This document shows, piece by piece, positions 22,666 to 29,910 of a stretch of DNA of 36,751 nucleotides. This DNA is from Chloroflexota bacterium. Lineage in GTDB: Bacteria; Chloroflexota; Limnocylindria; P2-11E. Every line of letters begins with the position of its first letter. The first letter of the stretch is position 1. Position numbers and translations under genes: made by a program. Below the pieces are notes generated by a model that was given only the letters and a program-made list of their open reading frames with translations, was not told the DNA's origin and did not search any database. The stretch covers positions 1 to 36,751 of the forward strand of contig VBIL01000028.1 in assembly GCA_005879975.1 (NCBI GenBank), written 5' to 3'.

Positions 22666-23562
22666 CTAGGTGCAGAGAGCAAGAGCGAGCTGCGCCGCTA
22701 CGCGCGCGTTCAAACGTAACAGCGCGATGTTCGCGTCGAGCGCGCGGCCTCGTGTGGATTCGCCGAGCGCGCGGAGAAGATATGGGGTGAGCTCGGCGCC
22801 GCGGATCCCCTCACGCTCGGCCACCCCGATCGAGCGCATAACGTCGGTCTCCACCTCGTCGTGATCGAGCGCCATCTCGAGGGGCACAGGAACTGCCAGG
22901 ACCATGCCTGAGCCGCGCGAGAACTGCTCGCGGGCGATGCGTGCCGCGCCGAGCGCGTCGTTGACGCGGTGCGACAGGCGAAGGCCGCTCGAGCGGACGT
23001 AAAAGGCGGGGAGATCATCGGTGCCGAATCCGATCACCGGCACCCCGAGCGTCTCGAGCCGCTCGAGAGTCAAGGCGAGATCGAGGACGAGCTTCGCGCC
23101 CGCGCTCACGACGCAGACCGGATTACGCGCGATCGCTTCGAGGTCCGCGGATTCGTCGAAGCTTCGCTCTGCGCCCCGGTGCACGCCGCCGATTCCACCG
23201 GTGGCCACTACGTGGATGCCCGCGCGGGCCGCGATCTCCACCGTCGCGGCGACCGTCGTCGCACCCAGACCGCGCGACGCGAGGACCGGAGCGATGTCGC
23301 GGAGTGAGGTCTTCGTCACGCCGTCCTCGTTCGCGAGTCGATCGAGAAGGACATCGCCGGCGCCGACCACGGCGCGGCCGTCGCTTAAAGCGATGGTCGC
23401 TGGTACCGCGCCGAGCGCGTGGATGTCGGCCTCGAGCGCGCGCGCGGTCTCGAGATTCCGCGGGCGCGGCAGCCCGTGCGCGATGACCGTGGATTCGAGC
23501 GCCACCACCGCCTCGACCGCGGCGAGCGCCTTGCTGACCTCGGGGGCGATCGCGAGCTTCAT
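22666..23562 (-). CDS. psuG: pseudouridine-5'-phosphate glycosidase
   Basis: A 298-residue enzyme that reversibly splits pseudouridine 5'-phosphate into uracil and ribose 5-phosphate. Conserved parts: VVALESTVIAHGLPRP near 19-34 with the catalytic Glu, ATGGIGGVHRGAE near 120-132, the Schiff-base lysine K157 in VVSAGAKLVLDL, and TPYLLRAL near the C-terminus. The length is normal. The ATG overlaps the mog stop by 4 bp, so psuG is coupled to the cofactor operon, an unusual place for it. The usual partner kinase PsuK (PfkB family) is not present; an APH-type kinase gene follows instead. Confidence 0.95.
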   Translation of the reverse strand: MKLAIAPEVSKALAAVEAVVALESTVIAHGLPRPRNLETARALEADIHALGAVPATIALSDGRAVVGAGDVLLDRLANEDGVTKTSLRDIAPVLASRGLGATTVAATVEIAARAGIHVVATGGIGGVHRGAERSFDESADLEAIARNPVCVVSAGAKLVLDLALTLERLETLGVPVIGFGTDDLPAFYVRSSGLRLSHRVNDALGAARIAREQFSRGSGMVLAVPVPLEMALDHDEVETDVMRSIGVAEREGIRGAELTPYLLRALGESTRGRALDANIALLRLNARVAAQLALALCT

Positions 23563-24062
23563 CGCCTGCCTGCGGCGTGCCCTCGCTCGCCGCTCCCGCC
23601 GGCGAGGAGCTCGACGGCGTGGGGGAGCACCGGGAGCAGCACCTCGAGCGACTCGCGCACCGCGCGCGGCGATCCCGGAAGATTCACGACGAGCGCCTGG
23701 CCCACGGCGCCCGCGACGCCGCGGGAGAGCATCCCGTGCGTCGTCTTCTCGAGCGACTTAGCACGGAGCGCCTCGGCGATGCCGGGCACCTCGCGGTCGA
23801 TGACCCGCCGCGTGGCTTCAGGCGTCACGTCGTTCGGGGAGAGGCCCGTCCCGCCCGTGGTCAGGACGACGTTCGCGCCCGCGCGCAGGGCTCCGAGGAT
23901 CGCGGTCGCGATGCCCTCGACATCGTCGGGCACGATCGTGCTCTGGACGACCTCGCATCCCGCGGCGACGAGCGCGTCGCGCATCGCCGGGCCGCTCTCA
24001 TCGGTCCGTTCTCCGGCAGCGCCCCTCGTGCTCACGGTGATGATGCCCGCGCGCACATTCAC
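23559..24062 (-). CDS. mog: molybdopterin adenylyltransferase-type protein (MogA/MoaB)
   Basis: A 167-residue MoCF-domain protein that would adenylate molybdopterin before metal insertion. Key motifs: [20 protein letters not shown] near 6-25, the pterin-phosphate loop [20 protein letters not shown] near 64-83 and [11 protein letters not shown] near 123-133. The length matches MoaB/MogA. The sequence does not separate MogA from MoaB. It overlaps moaC by 4 bp upstream and psuG by 4 bp downstream. Confidence 0.92.
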
Positions 24063-24637
24063 GAGGCGCGATACGTCCCGGATTTTCCGCCCGTCTTCTC
24101 GACGAGCCGGATGTCGGTGAGGCGCGCCCCGCGCTCGACCGACTTCAGCATGTCGTAGAGCGTGAGCCCCGCTACGGAGACCGCGGTCAACGCCTCCATC
24201 TCGACGCCGGTCCGGGCCGAGGTCGAGACCGTCGCCTCGATGGTGATGCCGTCCTGCCCGATCGTCAGCTCCACCGCGGCGTGCGTGAGCGGCAGCGGGT
24301 GGGTGAGGGGGATCAGCTCGCTCGTCTTCTTCGCGGCCATGATCCCAGCGAGCCGCGCGGCGGCGAGCACGTCGCCTTTGGGCGTGGCGCCGTCGCGCAC
24401 GAGCGCCCGGGTGGCGGGCGACACGCGGAGCAGTCCTCGTGCGACCGCGCGCCGTTCTGTCACGCCTTTCGCGCCGACGTCCACCATGCGGGCCGCGCCC
24501 TTCGTATCGAGGTGCGTGAGAACGGCCGTGCTTCGGCGGCTCGTCTTCGCCTTCCGGGGTCGCGTCGAGACCGCCTGATCTTTGATCCGTTCCAGGTACG
24601 CGGCCTGTCGCGCCTTTCTGCCCGAGGGCGGCGGCAT
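24059..24637 (-). CDS. moaC: cyclic pyranopterin monophosphate synthase
   Basis: A 192-residue MoaC, forming cPMP together with MoaA (not in this window). Conserved segments: [16 protein letters not shown] near 42-57, [19 protein letters not shown] near 87-105, [10 protein letters not shown] near 108-117, [23 protein letters not shown] near 143-165 with the catalytic Asp162 and Lys165, and KTGGKSG near 181-187. The first ~38 residues (many Arg/Lys) have no counterpart in standard MoaC; the ATG abuts the moeA stop, so the extension may be real, or a later start may be used. Confidence 0.95.
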
Positions 24638-25888
24638 CTACCGCGGCTCCGGCTGCTCGGTGAGGATCACGTCGACGCTCTCGCCGGCCTCATAGCGATC
24701 CCTGCCCGCCGGCAGGTCGATGAGGCAGTTCGCGAGCGACATCGAACGAAGGATCCCGGAGCCTTGCGGCCCAGTCAGCCGCACGGTGCCCGCTCCCGCA
24801 TCGTGGATGCCGCGCGCGAAGAAGCGGAGCGACGGGATCTTCTCGATCGGCTCGAGCAGCCGGGCGGTGGTGCGCGGACGGCTCACGTGTTCGCGGCCCT
24901 GCATCCGCAGAAGCGCGGGCCGGACGAAGATCTCGAACGTCAAGAGCGCGGAGACCGTATTGCCCGGGAGGCCGAAGATCGGGACGCGCCGCTCGCCGTC
25001 TTTCAGCGCGCCGAACGCGAGCGGCCGCCCGGGACGGATCGCGATGGCCCAGAAGTCGATGGTGCCGAGCTCCGACAGCACCGGCTTCAGGTGATCGTGG
25101 TCTCCTACGGACACGCCGCCGCTCGTCACGATGGCGTCGGCGGCCATCGCTTCGCGGAGCGCCGCGTGCAGCGCGTCGGGCGAATCCGGCACGATCCCGC
25201 GCACCCATGGCTCGGCACCCATAGCGCGGATCGCCGAGGCGAGCGTGTAGCGATTGGAGTCGCGGATCTGTCCTTTGCCGAGCGGTGCGTCAAGATCGGC
25301 GATCTCATCGCCGGTCGAAAACACCGCGACGCGCGGGCGCTTGCGAACGCGCACCCTCGCGCGACCGACGGACGCGAGCAGGCCGATCTCCGCCGGCCGG
25401 AGCACCGTGCCCGTCCCGAGGATCGTCTCGCCTGCGCGAAGATCCTCCCCCGCCTGCCGCACGGAGATCCCCTTCGGGGTCGGCGCGGTGATCGTCACGA
25501 CGTCGCTTGCGTTGTCGGTGTCCTCGACGCGCACCACGGTGTCGGCGCCCTCGGGCATCGGCGCGCCGGTCATGATCCGGAGCGCCTCACCTTTGCCGAT
25601 CGCGCGGTCGGGGAATCCGCCTGCCGCGACCTCGCCCACCACACGCAGCCGCGTGGGAGCGGTCGCGACGTCATCGCCGCGCACCGCATAGCCGTCCATC
25701 GCGGAGTTGCGGAATGGCGGGACGTCGCGGTCGGCGGAGATCTCCTCGGCGAGCACAAGACCGAGCGCATCGAGGAGCTGGACGTCGACCGCCGGCAGCG
25801 CCGGGACGCCTGCGAGGATCCGCGCGAGCGCGTCGTCCGCGCTCATGAGGCGCTGTGCGGGACGCGCTGAGGTCGCGCTGATCGGCAC
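24638..25888 (-). CDS. moeA: molybdopterin molybdenumtransferase
   Basis: A 416-residue MoeA that inserts molybdate (or tungstate) into adenylated molybdopterin. Order: PPFRNSAMDGYAVRGDD at 57-73, MTGAPMPEGADTVVRVED near 106-123, the MoCF domain with VFSTGDEI near 190-197 and VTSGGVSVGDHDHL near 255-268, FGLPGNTVSALLTFEIFVRPAL near 310-331, and a beta-barrel C-terminal domain. All usual motifs are present and the length is typical. It lies 9 bp after tupC, linking uptake of the oxyanion to its insertion. Confidence 0.96.
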   Translation of the reverse strand: MPISATSARPAQRLMSADDALARILAGVPALPAVDVQLLDALGLVLAEEISADRDVPPFRNSAMDGYAVRGDDVATAPTRLRVVGEVAAGGFPDRAIGKGEALRIMTGAPMPEGADTVVRVEDTDNASDVVTITAPTPKGISVRQAGEDLRAGETILGTGTVLRPAEIGLLASVGRARVRVRKRPRVAVFSTGDEIADLDAPLGKGQIRDSNRYTLASAIRAMGAEPWVRGIVPDSPDALHAALREAMAADAIVTSGGVSVGDHDHLKPVLSELGTIDFWAIAIRPGRPLAFGALKDGERRVPIFGLPGNTVSALLTFEIFVRPALLRMQGREHVSRPRTTARLLEPIEKIPSLRFFARGIHDAGAGTVRLTGPQGSGILRSMSLANCLIDLPAGRDRYEAGESVDVILTEQPEPR

Positions 25889-25897
25889 GGAGCGAGT

Positions 25898-26977
25898 TTA
25901 GTTGCGGCGGTGGCGTGGGAGGAGATGCGGGACCGTCGCCTTGAACGACGCGACGACATCGTCTCCTGCACGCAGTTCGAGCTCGCGCGCGGAGCGATGC
26001 GTCACATGGGCCACCAGCGGAAAGCCGCAATCGAGCACCACTCGCACGCGCCGGCCGATCGGCTCGACCCGGAGGATCCGACCGTCGAACGTGTTCCGAG
26101 CGCTCGTCGCCGGCGCGACACGAGCGATGACCACGTCGTCGGGTGGGATTCCCACAAGGGGGAACTCCTCTCCGGGCGGAGCGCTTGCGGTGACTTCGAG
26201 CAGGTGCCGACCAACTTCGAGGTGGGTGAGCTCGTCGTCGGATGAGGCCACCCGAGCCGGAAGGATGTTCTCCACGCCGACGAAGGCCGCCACATCGGGA
26301 TCAGCGGGCGTTGCGAACACGACCTCGGCACGATCAGCCTGCCGCACTCGGCCATCGATGAGCACCGCCACGTGCTCGGCGAGCGACAAGGCCTCATCGC
26401 GATCGTGAGTCACGAGTACGGTGGTGAGGCCGTCGACCCGCACGGCATTGCCCAGGTCCGCTATGGCGCTCTCGCGTGTGGGCGCGTCAAGACCGCCGAA
26501 TGGCTCGTCGAGGAAGAGAACCTCAGGACGGACCGCGAGCGAGCGTGCGATCGAGACACGTTGAGCCTCGCCGCCCGAGAGCGCCCACGCGGGGCGCCGC
26601 CCGAGACTTCCGACCCCGATCCGCGTCAGAGCCTCGTGGGCGCGGCGCTCGCGTTCGGGGCGAGGTACGCCACGCAGCTCGAGGCCGAGCGCGACGTTAT
26701 CGAGCACGGAGCGATCGAGCAAGAGAGGGCGCTGGAACGCGACGGCGATCCGACGTCGATACGCGACGTGGTCGCGAACGACCTCACCCCGGAAACGGAG
26801 CTCGCCGCTCGCCGGGAGGAGCGAGGCAAGGGCGAAGACGAGAGAGCTCTTGCCGGCCCCATTCGGACCGAGCAGCGCGAGTGTCTCACCCTCTTCGATG
26901 TCGATCCGGGGGACGCGAACGACCTCGCGTCCGCCGCGCGACACGACGAGATCCGTTGCTTCGATGATCGCCGCCAT
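25898..26977 (-). CDS. tupC: tungstate/molybdate ABC transporter ATPase with C-terminal Mop/TOBE domains
   Basis: A 359-residue ATPase: Walker A GPNGAGKS at 37-44, Q-loop AFQRPLLLD near 80-88, signature LSGGEAQR at 133-140, Walker B VLFLDEP at 153-159 and H-loop THDRDEAL at 190-197. After residue 236 come two TOBE/Mop-like segments (ILPARVASSDDELTHLEVG and FDGRILRVEPIGRRVRVVLDCG) that in ModC-type proteins bind the oxyanion and feed back on transport. ATG 26977 shares one base with the permease stop; the longer upstream frame is shadow. It would pair with TupB and TupA. Confidence 0.92.
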   Translation of the reverse strand: MAAIIEATDLVVSRGGREVVRVPRIDIEEGETLALLGPNGAGKSSLVFALASLLPASGELRFRGEVVRDHVAYRRRIAVAFQRPLLLDRSVLDNVALGLELRGVPRPERERRAHEALTRIGVGSLGRRPAWALSGGEAQRVSIARSLAVRPEVLFLDEPFGGLDAPTRESAIADLGNAVRVDGLTTVLVTHDRDEALSLAEHVAVLIDGRVRQADRAEVVFATPADPDVAAFVGVENILPARVASSDDELTHLEVGRHLLEVTASAPPGEEFPLVGIPPDDVVIARVAPATSARNTFDGRILRVEPIGRRVRVVLDCGFPLVAHVTHRSARELELRAGDDVVASFKATVPHLLPRHRRN

Positions 26978-27675
26978 CAGAGTGGTCTCCGGCGCTGCTG
27001 CGCCCAGGTCGTCACCGCGTTCACCGCGAAGACCAAGAGCAAGAGGATGAACGCCAGCGCGAAGGCCGAGCCGAACTCGCCTTTGCTCGTGTCGAGTGCG
27101 ATCGCCGTGGTCAGGATGCGGGTGTCGCCTTTGATGTTGCAGCCGACCATCAGCGACGCCCCGATCTCGCTGATCACGGCGCCGAAGCCGGCCATCGCCG
27201 CGGTCAGGATGGGCAACCGCGCCTCCCGGACGAGGATGCCGAGCGTCTGGAGCCGCGTCGCCCCGAGGGCGGACAGCTGCAAGCGCAGCATCGGATCGAT
27301 CGACTGGATGGCGATCGCGGTGAGTCCGACCACCGTCGGCGCGGCGAGGAGGTATTGAGCGGCCACCATCGCTTGCCGCGTGCAATACCAGTCGAGAGCG
27401 CCGAAGGGTCCGCTGCGCCAGACGAGGACCGCGACAAAGAGACCAACGACGACCGGTGGGAGACCCATGCCGGTGTTGACGATCGAGAGAAGGAACTTCC
27501 GGCCCGGGAAGCTGCTGAGGCCGAGCCATGCACCGGCGGGAACTCCCGTGACCACCGAGAGCATCGTCGCGATCCCGCTGACGACCAGCGCCGCAGAGGT
27601 CGCCTCGCGAACGTCCGGATCGAGCGACACCAGCCGTGACGCCGCCTCGCCAAGGCCCTGAACGATCAGGTCCAC
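26977..27675 (-). CDS. tupB: tungstate-type ABC transporter permease
   Basis: A 232-residue permease with about five helices. The segment GASLMVGCNIKGDTRILTTAI near 170-190 is characteristic of TupB/tungstate permeases. The EAA-like loop is LRLQLSALGATRLQTLGILVREAR near 130-153. The start is GTG, directly after the tupA stop. Selectivity for tungstate over molybdate is judged from family resemblance and the TupA-type binding protein; I did not test it. Confidence 0.92.
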   Translation of the reverse strand: MDLIVQGLGEAASRLVSLDPDVREATSAALVVSGIATMLSVVTGVPAGAWLGLSSFPGRKFLLSIVNTGMGLPPVVVGLFVAVLVWRSGPFGALDWYCTRQAMVAAQYLLAAPTVVGLTAIAIQSIDPMLRLQLSALGATRLQTLGILVREARLPILTAAMAGFGAVISEIGASLMVGCNIKGDTRILTTAIALDTSKGEFGSAFALAFILLLLVFAVNAVTTWAQQRRRPL

Positions 27676-28512
27676 CTAGTGCACCTCGGCGTCGCTCTTC
27701 CCGGCGTCGGGGAAGAAGAGCGGCTCGCCGTACTTGTCCACGCCGAACGCGGCGATGAATCGCTGGGTCTCGGCCGAGACCATGTAGTCAGCGAAGGCAT
27801 TCGCTCCGGCAGCGTTCACGTTCGGAAACTTCTGCGGATCGACCGTGATCACGTGATAGACGTTGATCAGCGGAGGGTCGCGCTGCACCAGGATCTCGGC
27901 CTCGATCTGACCACGGCGGGCGAGGAACGTCCCGCGATCTGACAGGGTGTACGCGCGCTTCTCGGATGCGACGGTGAGGGTCTGCCCCATGCCGGTCGCG
28001 GCCTCCACGTACCAGGGCCCGGCCGGAGCGATCCCGGTCTGCTTCCAGAGGTTCTTCTCGAAGATGTCCGTGCCGGACTTGTCGCCGCGCGAGATGAACG
28101 TCGCGCGCGCGGCGGCGATCGCTCGCAATGCGTCGAAGATGTTCTTGCCCCGAACGTGTGCCGGGTCGCCGGGCGGACCGAGGAGGACGAAGTCGTTATG
28201 CATCACCAGCAGGCGACGCTCGCCGTTTCCCTGCTGCATGTACGCGAGCTCTTCGTTGGGCGCATGCACGAACACCACATCGGCGTCGCCCCGAGCGCCG
28301 ATGGCCAGCGCCGCCCCGGTCCCGACGGCGGTCGCCCGCAGCCGGTAGGGCGTGCGTTTCTGGAAATCGGCGGCAAGAACATCAAGCAGCCCTGAATCCT
28401 GGAAGCTGGTCGTGGTCGCGAGCAGTACCTCCGGGCGATTCACGCTCGTCTGAACCAGCGGACCGCATGCGACGAGAGCGCAAGCGAGGAGCGCGCCGAA
28501 CGCTCGGATCAT
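27676..28512 (-). CDS. tupA: tungstate-binding lipoprotein (TupA type)
   Basis: A 278-residue binding protein. Residues 1-15 are a signal peptide with lipobox LVAC (Cys16). The mature start VLLATTTSFQDSGLLDVLAADF carries the TTTS motif of TupA proteins, followed by GTGAALAIGARGDADVVFVHAP, FISRGDKSGTDIFEKNLW (anion-binding Ser/Arg/Gly region) and VITVDPQKFPNVN. ATG 28512 overlaps the HTH-Mop gene stop by 4 bp (ATGA) and was preferred to a longer frame because the signal peptide then begins correctly. Confidence 0.93.
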   Translation of the reverse strand: MIRAFGALLACALVACGPLVQTSVNRPEVLLATTTSFQDSGLLDVLAADFQKRTPYRLRATAVGTGAALAIGARGDADVVFVHAPNEELAYMQQGNGERRLLVMHNDFVLLGPPGDPAHVRGKNIFDALRAIAAARATFISRGDKSGTDIFEKNLWKQTGIAPAGPWYVEAATGMGQTLTVASEKRAYTLSDRGTFLARRGQIEAEILVQRDPPLINVYHVITVDPQKFPNVNAAGANAFADYMVSAETQRFIAAFGVDKYGEPLFFPDAGKSDAEVH

Positions 28513-28940
28513 CTGCCCGCCGGCACCTCGACCACGACGTTCGTCGCCTTGATCACGCACACGACGCTCCGGCCTGGCCCCAGGCCTAGCTCGGTCGCCG
28601 CCTCCGCCGTCATCAGGCTGACGAGCCGATGCGGCCCCGCCTGGACCTCTACGACCGCCGCAACGCGGTCTTTCTCGACGCGCGTGACGATCCCGGGAAA
28701 GCGGTTGCGCGCGGACTGCGCGACGATCGGCCGCTGCTTGGTCCGCTCGCGCCTTTCGCGCTGAAGCCGGCGCAGCTCCGTGAGGCCGACCAGGCGCTGC
28801 CCGCCGGATGACCTTCGGACGCGGATCCTTCCAGAGGCCGCCCAGCGCCGCAGCGTGTCGGTCGAGACGCCCAGCAGCTCGGCCGCCTGGCCGATGCGCA
28901 TTGGTTGTCCATTCCTATGTTCCTTCGGAGTCTTTGCCAT
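28509..28940 (-). CDS. MerR/BldC-like HTH protein with C-terminal Mop (TOBE) domain, probable oxyanion-responsive regulator
   Basis: A 143-residue two-domain protein. Residues 14-60 form a MerR/excisionase-type winged HTH (MRIGQAAELLGVSTDTLRRW, then GRIRVRRSSGGQRLVGLTEL). Residues about 78-142 form a single Mop domain (NRFPGIVTRVEKDRVAAVVEVQ, then VVCVIKATNVVVEV), the molybdate/tungstate-binding fold. It heads the tup-moe-moa operon and overlaps tupA by 4 bp, so it probably senses intracellular oxyanion and controls the operon, replacing ModE. A perfect palindrome lies just upstream. The start is uncertain: ATG 28940 or ATG 28901 (Met14), the latter matching the domain boundary better. Confidence 0.88.
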   Translation of the reverse strand: MAKTPKEHRNGQPMRIGQAAELLGVSTDTLRRWAASGRIRVRRSSGGQRLVGLTELRRLQRERRERTKQRPIVAQSARNRFPGIVTRVEKDRVAAVVEVQAGPHRLVSLMTAEAATELGLGPGRSVVCVIKATNVVVEVPAGR

Positions 28941-29000: not shown

Positions 29001-29831
29001 TCAGGCCGCGTCGCGGCGTTCGCCATCGGCGGCCAGCGCCGCTTCCGCGGTGCGAAGCAGCACCGTGCTCGTCTGCATGCTGTCGCTCCACGTCGCCGCC
29101 CCGGCGCGCACACTCCAGCGTGCCGCCCCGAAGACGCGCACTGTCGATGTCATCGTCCGCACGAGCTCGTCCAGCCGCGCGCGCACCAGCGCGGCAAGCC
29201 GCTCTCCCCGTGCCACGTCTCGTCCGACCGGTGCGAGCGCCGCGACACCGCTCTCGCCGTACCGATAAGCGGAGACGTCACCGCCGAAGAGCGTCGCGGT
29301 CGCGCCCAGCGTCGCCCGGATTGCGCGATGAACCATCGCGCGGCGGTTGGCCTCAACGACCCCGTCCACGTCGAGCTGCGCTAGCACCACTGCGAAGCTC
29401 GGACCGCCATCGCGCGCCGCCGCGATCCGCTCGCGCACCGAGGCGACGAGGACGCGATCGAGATACGCCTCGGCGACCGGCTGCGCGCGCGGTGGCGCGG
29501 TCTCGGCGACCAGCGGGAACGGACGAGCCTCGGCGTCGCCGAGCAGTCGCCGGAGCGTCGGCAGCATCGCCGACCAGCGCTCGCGCTCGGCCATGCGCTC
29601 CGCCGCGCCGAGCGCGCTGAGGCAGACCATCGCCGCCGCGGCAGGCGCGATGTAACCGCCCTCGATCAGCGACTGCAGCGCCCGGCCGAACGCGCCCGAG
29701 GCGAACGGCAGCCGCTCGGCCGCGATCGCGGCGAGAAGCGCCGCCGGGCGCGCGGGCCCAGACGCCAGGCCCTCCAGGAGGTACAGACGGAAGAACGCAG
29801 TCGCCAGCCCGGTCGCGGCCGCCCGGACCAT
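29001..29831 (-). CDS. PadR-like winged-helix protein fused to a degenerate GGDEF-like domain
   Basis: A 276-residue soluble protein with no clear single family. Residues about 13-85 resemble a PadR-type winged helix (RLYLLEGLASGPARPAALLAAI, then GAFGRALQSLIEGGYIAP, then LSALGAAERMAERERW). Residues about 144-272 follow the GGDEF fold pattern: FAVVLAQLDVDGVVEANRR, RYGESGVAAL at 190-199 where the GGDEF signature would be, and VRAGAATWSDSMQTSTVLLRTAEAAL like the closing helices. The signature and metal-binding acidic residues are absent, so diguanylate cyclase activity is unlikely; it could bind a nucleotide and act as a sensor. The start ATG has a strong GGAGGGGGAG upstream. It is 60 bp upstream of the Mo/W operon and divergent from the lipid kinase. 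Both domain calls are by pattern only. Confidence 0.6.
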   Translation of the reverse strand: MVRAAATGLATAFFRLYLLEGLASGPARPAALLAAIAAERLPFASGAFGRALQSLIEGGYIAPAAAAMVCLSALGAAERMAERERWSAMLPTLRRLLGDAEARPFPLVAETAPPRAQPVAEAYLDRVLVASVRERIAAARDGGPSFAVVLAQLDVDGVVEANRRAMVHRAIRATLGATATLFGGDVSAYRYGESGVAALAPVGRDVARGERLAALVRARLDELVRTMTSTVRVFGAARWSVRAGAATWSDSMQTSTVLLRTAEAALAADGERRDAA

Positions 29832-29910
29832 CGCTCCCCCTCCGATGGTTTTCCGTCAAGACGAACGGCTCGGCCTTGAGGTGGCCCGTCACGTGCCCTG
29901 GGCTCGCGCG

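Follow-up and report, generated by a model that had tools for sequence, protein, structure and literature searches.

The gene at 29831..29001 on the minus strand encodes a 276-residue protein in which a predicted PadR-type winged helix is joined to a GGDEF domain that has lost its catalytic and I-site residues. By sequence comparison, such proteins form a small conserved family in some Chloroflexota and are usually encoded after rho. Our preferred reading, to which we assign a probability of roughly 45%, is that the protein is a dimeric winged-helix regulator, probably autoregulated, whose dead GGDEF domain acts as a dimerisation or ligand-sensing module. Throughout, the window denotes the whole stretch of DNA analysed (36,751 nucleotides), which corresponds to contig C15 in an assembly of 2.66 Mb and 83% completeness. 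It contains the following features:

29001..29831, minus strand: winged-helix–GGDEF gene, coding for a PadR-type winged helix and a catalytically dead GGDEF domain (open reading frame, orthologues, alignment, purifying selection)
29535..29831, minus strand: predicted winged helix, residues 1–99 (AF2, VIA-align to 9qbc, hhalign to PadR relatives)
29004..29474, minus strand: GGDEF fold without an active site, residues 120–276 (AF2, VIA-align, hhalign)
29244..29264, minus strand: RYGESGV, residues 190–196, equivalent to the RxGGDEF hairpin (hhalign register, model hairpin, invariant residues)
29863..29878, minus strand: candidate cis element with the sequence CAAG-N6-CCGTTC, located 47 nt upstream of the start codon
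33083..34495, minus strand: rho, the conserved upstream neighbour (TIGR00767, 600.4 bits against a cut-off of 509.45; synteny; co-absence)
23559..28940, minus strand: Mo/W cluster downstream of the gene, with MerR-TOBE, TupA, TupB, ABC ATPase, MoeA, MoaC and MogA/MoaB types (Pfam and NCBIfam profiles, several of the assignments scoring below NCBIfam equivalog cut-offs)
28509–28940, minus strand: gene heading the Mo/W cluster, coding for a MerR/excisionase-type helix-turn-helix joined to a TOBE/Mop domain

Distribution and conservation of the gene

According to the open reading frame list and the translation of the window, the gene starts with ATG. A search of 177 genomes of the class yielded orthologues of its product in 22 (E up to 0.001), all belonging to two families of a single order (genera, families and orders are labelled as in the search tool). 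They comprise 11 of the 11 genomes searched from the window's genus, 10 of the 17 other genomes of its family, and one genome of the second family (G028); loci L028–L041 were assigned to genomes through identical proteins. A sample of 400 genomes from the phylum (E up to 0.01) yielded ten matches, eight of them in genomes already counted and two weak ones covering part of the N-domain (G396 and G408). The latter, together with the weak class matches G037 and G051, were kept out of the membership count. A Rugosimonospora protein (L042), which presumably resembles a DnaJ-type DUF1992 protein, was dropped as a family member because the rest of the protein is missing.

Within an 18-member alignment, which leaves out the broken copies L034 and L040 and the partial L032, identity to the window protein ranges from 41 to 85%. 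For 36 pairs drawn from nine members of the window's genus, median pN/pS was 0.28 over the whole gene and 0.26, 0.47 and 0.23 over the N-domain, linker and C-domain, respectively; by this measure, constraint is stronger on the two domains than on the linker. The occurrence of orthologues in 22 genomes of the class, combined with low pN/pS, indicates that the reading frame is a real gene and more than a chance one. Broken copies are present in three of the 22 genomes and reflect either decay or assembly error: L040 (G016) has an in-frame TAG, L034 (G004) a 36-residue internal gap, and L009 (G005) a disrupted N-terminus.

Predicted folds and lost sites of the two domains

The full-length AF2 model is good in its C-terminal part (block pLDDT 77–92 at residues 131–276, and 62 at 121–130). 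Structure comparison of the C-domain with VIA-align matched 6et7_B, a diguanylate cyclase, with Z 15.8 (rmsd 2.9, 141 aligned residues). The 50 rows of this search include entries titled as GGDEF or cyclase proteins, and we take the rows without such a title (PA3702/WspR, DosP, SadC and the like) to be GGDEF or cyclase proteins too. In hhalign, the C-domain scored 38.6 against eight GGDEF sequences from the window's own genome (eight of ten matches, with L063 and L064 dropped), compared with 19.6 for the best of 100 column shuffles. Model, structure comparison and profile alignment thus agree on the GGDEF fold that the original prediction had placed in the C-terminal half. Sequence searches gave fainter signals: Pfam PF00990 matches residues 126–166 weakly and locally, below its cut-off (15.8 against 23.8 bits), and is matched up to E 1 by nine of the 18 members (best E 0.0011); a search of PDB sequences returned two matches only (E 0.065 and 0.23), and a viral fold library returned two GGDEF-type proteins below E 0.001.

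The register implied by Pfam was rejected, since hhalign and the model both put the GGDEF hairpin at residues 190–196. Over 130 columns, hhalign aligns R190-Y-G-E-S-G-V on R-x-G-G-D-E-F, and the AF2 model forms a beta hairpin there (187–191/195–201), which bears out the earlier proposal that RYGESG stands in place of the GGDEF loop. In this register, the loop reads RYG[ED]xG in nearly all members and RYG[EDA]xG overall, and the GG[DE]EF motif is absent from 18 of 18. The position of the catalytic Glu is occupied by Gly in every member, and the metal Asp position, which we assume to be D327 of PleD, by Q, V, A or R in 17 members and by D in one. The I-site Arg (RxxD) is absent from all 18 in either register, the residue being F or L at 182 by spacing and Gly at 176 by hhalign, and hhalign shows a shortened substrate-binding stretch following beta-1. 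Residues R169, R172, D185, R190, G192 and G195 are invariant in the 18 members, and D185 lies near the I-site Asp.

With the catalytic Glu, the metal Asp and the I-site Arg lost, diguanylate cyclase activity appears very unlikely, in line with the dead cyclase domain first proposed, and reception of c-di-GMP through the I-site appears unlikely. The nucleotide response suggested at the outset is thus unlikely in the form of c-di-GMP bound at the usual inhibitory site. The low pN/pS of this dead domain points to selection for something other than catalysis. PopA is a receptor that uses a dead GGDEF domain, and a comparable receptor for c-di-GMP or GTP would be compatible with the retained fold, with the invariant D185 and R190, and with the true GGDEF and EAL proteins encoded in the same genome, from which c-di-GMP is probably present in the cell. 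The loss of all three site residues and the shortened substrate-binding stretch argue against such a receptor, which we consider unlikely.

The N-domain has a pLDDT of 30–53 in the full-length model, where it was left uninterpreted, and a separate AF2 prediction of residues 1–99 was used (14 sequences; pLDDT 90.3, pTM 0.82). It has the order H-H-H-E-E-H, with helices at residues 6–22, 29–37 and 47–57, wing strands at 61–63 and 69–71, and a long helix at 73–96. The best VIA-align match was the PadR protein 9qbc (Z 12.2, rmsd 2.4, 94 aligned residues). PadR titles make up nine of the first 16 rows, the other seven being titled as transcription factors or regulators, unnamed proteins, or LmrR. 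Past rank 16, MarR and further winged-helix proteins appear among the PadR entries; the closest winged-helix relatives are thus PadR proteins, with others also related. Foldseek found no match to the N-domain below E 0.001, its first row being 2hr3, a putative regulator, and its second a PadR protein.

The PadR-like N-terminus of the original prediction thus agrees with the predicted fold. An hhalign score of 23.3 against nine PadR relatives (nine of ten extracted sequences, with L082 dropped) exceeds the best of 100 column shuffles (21.6) by a thin margin, but Pfam PadR (PF03551) has no match up to E 1 in the window protein or in any of the 18 members, four of which weakly match Pfam HVO_A0261_N (best E 0.004). 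The wing (residues 59–73) contains no Lys or Arg in 16 of 18 members and one in the other two, whereas the final 15 residues of the corresponding segment carry three to six in the nine PadR relatives. Acidic residues are also fewer, and over the entire helix-turn-helix–wing stretch the two groups have a similar net charge (−2 to +2 in the family, −1 to +5 in PadR). A wing almost without basic residues suggests that DNA binding, which had been assumed from the start, may be weak or lost, though the similar net charge tempers this point.

Upstream element and gene neighbourhood

The pattern CAAG-N6-CCG[TA] occurs in 13 of 21 upstream regions, and the relaxed form CAAG-N6-[CT]CG in 19 of 21, located 24–59 nt ahead of the start; the element is absent from L035 and from L022, a locus of the second family. 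Strict copies span five genera and relaxed copies six. The spacing of the element is constant against variable flanking sequence, and the gene upstream of it may be rho, the lipid kinase or another. In 500 dinucleotide shuffles of 20 regions (13 strict and 19 relaxed copies; L035 was left out and checked later), the strict pattern appeared 0.12 times on average (maximum 2) and the relaxed one 0.62 times (maximum 4), figures that flatter the element because it was first spotted by eye in these very sequences and because the regions are not independent, nine of the 20 coming from one genus. Across the window's own genome, GCAAG-N6-CCGTTC has five matches, compared with seven for a reversed control (the window's own copy, with T before CAAG, is excluded from this count), and with matches at control level the element is not a regulon motif. 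Within the window, CAAG-N6-CCGTTC occurs seven times with one mismatch, against 2.7 expected, and once as an exact copy. Rfam searches found nothing close to the gathering score near the gene and no match reaching that score in 12 loci. The element could be an operator, a promoter or a leader RNA.

In the regulator that we favour, the PadR-type domain would be the DNA-reading and dimer part, through helix alpha-3 together with its long C-terminal helix. The GGDEF domain, no longer making c-di-GMP, would dimerise or sense a ligand, and a change in it would alter the spacing of the two winged helices. CAAG-N6-CCGTTC would be the best candidate for the protein's own operator, through which it would control its own gene. 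We infer DNA binding, dimerisation, autoregulation and a ligand; the predicted folds of both halves, the profile alignments, the lost catalytic and I-site residues, the constraint on both domains, the fixed spacing of the element between varied flanks and the precedent of MabR, a transcription factor with a dead GGDEF-like domain, speak for this regulator. Against them stand the wing without basic residues, the missing Pfam and Foldseek matches of the N-domain, and the element itself, which is not palindromic, unlike the usual operator of a dimer.

The steadiest neighbour of the gene is rho. In the window, the two are separated by four predicted genes (3.25 kb). Both genes are known from 20 genomes, 19 in the family and G028, and in 17 of these rho lies upstream on the same contig and strand, at a distance of 69–3773 nt (ten genomes of the window's genus, the window included, and G011, G015, G016, G019, G020, G022 and G028). 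The two are on different contigs in G005, G012 and G024, and clearly apart in G012. Among the 28 genomes of the family, rho (PF07497) and the gene are both present in 19 and both missing from six, with the gene alone in two and rho alone in one (Fisher 0.0005, a value that ignores kinship). The gene-only genomes are G013, which is 66% complete, and G026, where the gene lies 120 nt from a contig end; in the rho-only genome, G018, MoeA was also not found, and the genome may be incomplete. Genus g8 (G017, G021, G023, G025 and G027; loci L106–L110; 70–95% complete) lacks the gene in five of five genomes and, with no PF07497 match up to E 0.01 and no Rho match up to E 1e-100 in any of them, appears to lack the transcription terminator Rho. 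The co-absence may go back to one or two events, possibly a single deletion. All four genomes tested from other families of the class have rho and lack the gene.

These data could also be read as pointing to a protein-binding Rho adaptor, whose winged helix would have become a module for contacting protein or RNA and which would tune termination; this would account for a gene that follows rho and is lost with it. The conserved order, the pattern of co-occurrence, the wing without basic residues, and genus g8, which is without both genes and keeps MoeA in five of five genomes, are in keeping with this idea. However, the joint loss of neighbouring genes may be a single deletion, the genes lie on different contigs in three genomes, and the four genomes tested from other families have rho without this gene; an adaptor is, in our judgement, an unlikely explanation. 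Rather improbable is the more specific scenario of a lineage-specific Rho companion that modulates Rho-dependent termination on a nucleotide or partner signal and was lost as useless when g8 lost Rho. A literature search on rho with GGDEF neighbours turned up no paper.

On its other side, the gene adjoins the Mo/W cluster, and it is divergent from a lipid kinase gene (DAGK_cat/YegS_C), both as originally described. The lipid kinase gene lies on the plus strand and starts at 29845 or 29914, leaving 13–82 nt to the start of the winged-helix–GGDEF gene depending on the start chosen. The MerR-TOBE protein at the head of the cluster resembles a ModE-like sensor of unusual build. Mo/W genes also lie downstream of the gene elsewhere in the window's genus and in G012, G013, G016, G022 and G026, and G028 has none within about 4 kb downstream. 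Genus g8 retains MoeA-MoaC-MogA in five of five genomes, with uptake genes beside them in four. Near the Mo/W cluster of this genus, we also observed nickel superoxide dismutase genes (PF09055, 141–142 bits; L106:15312-15740 and L107:16913-17398, both on the minus strand).

A molybdate- or tungstate-linked regulator of the downstream uptake and cofactor genes would fit the position of the gene in the window, where it immediately precedes the cluster and shares its strand, and the recurrence of this arrangement in several genera. Yet g8 keeps the Mo/W genes without the gene, G028 shows no such neighbour within about 4 kb downstream, and a likely Mo/W sensor is already present in the MerR-TOBE protein with its Mop domain, which makes this role improbable. 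A link to Mo/W genes thus does exist in several genera, yet the gene is found beside rho more consistently, and g8 keeps the Mo/W genes in the absence of both. Taken together, the original prediction is supported in its PadR-type winged helix and in a GGDEF fold that has lost its active site; DNA binding was assumed in it, and a c-di-GMP response by way of the I-site is unlikely. Finally, a decaying gene without function, as the three broken copies might suggest if they are not assembly errors, is very improbable, given that pN/pS is low in the N- and C-domains alike and that the protein is conserved in two families.

Comparison with known regulators

Judged by profile matches, the protein is a member of neither PadR nor PucR. 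With PadR regulators (PF03551; 9qbc, 7wjp, 5x13) it shares a winged helix with a long C-terminal helix, but it has no Pfam PadR match, its wing is short with almost no basic residues, and the winged helix is fused to a GGDEF domain. With diguanylate cyclases (PF00990) it shares the GGDEF fold over 141 residues, but RYG[EDA]xG replaces RxGGDEF, and the metal ligands and the I-site Arg are lost in the family.

The nearest working parallel is offered by the PucR/CdaR factors, such as MabR (Rv2242; PF17853 GGDEF_2 and PF13556 HTH_30), which are regulators with a dead GGDEF-fold domain (PMC11617747). MabR is described as a transcription factor with a GGDEF-like domain lacking A- or I-site motifs beside a helix-turn-helix, which forms dimers and tetramers and whose effector remains to be identified (PMC11617747). 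The helix-turn-helix of PucR/CdaR factors is a C-terminal HTH_30, whereas the protein studied here has an N-terminal PadR-type winged helix and ends with its GGDEF domain; up to E 1, GGDEF_2 (PF17853) has no match in it or the 18 members, and HTH_30 none in the family. The C-domain profile scored 38.6 over 130 columns with canonical GGDEF and 26.8 over 46 columns with a hand-trimmed GGDEF_2 set, a blunt test, since canonical GGDEF itself reaches only 19.7 against that set. The same genome encodes a PucR/CdaR-like protein (G000 contig C58, L122:1300-2154, plus strand; GGDEF_2 26.2 and HTH_30 74.5 bits, both over the cut-off), which showed no close kinship to the winged-helix–GGDEF protein in our comparison.

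GdpP, too, retains a degenerate GGDEF domain in a different role, with a weak ATPase reported for the E. faecalis protein (PMC10243994). GdpP is, however, a c-di-AMP phosphodiesterase and not a winged-helix protein. Titles and abstract openings in the literature contained no report of a PadR-type winged helix–GGDEF fusion, and an apparent link between PadR and c-di-GMP proved to be the plasmid name pAdrA. The function of this family is directly testable, since a candidate operator is at hand and genus g8, which has neither the gene nor detectable Rho, provides a natural control. Dead GGDEF domains are already known from transcription factors, and the present protein adds a compact case of 276 residues with a different DNA-binding-type domain.
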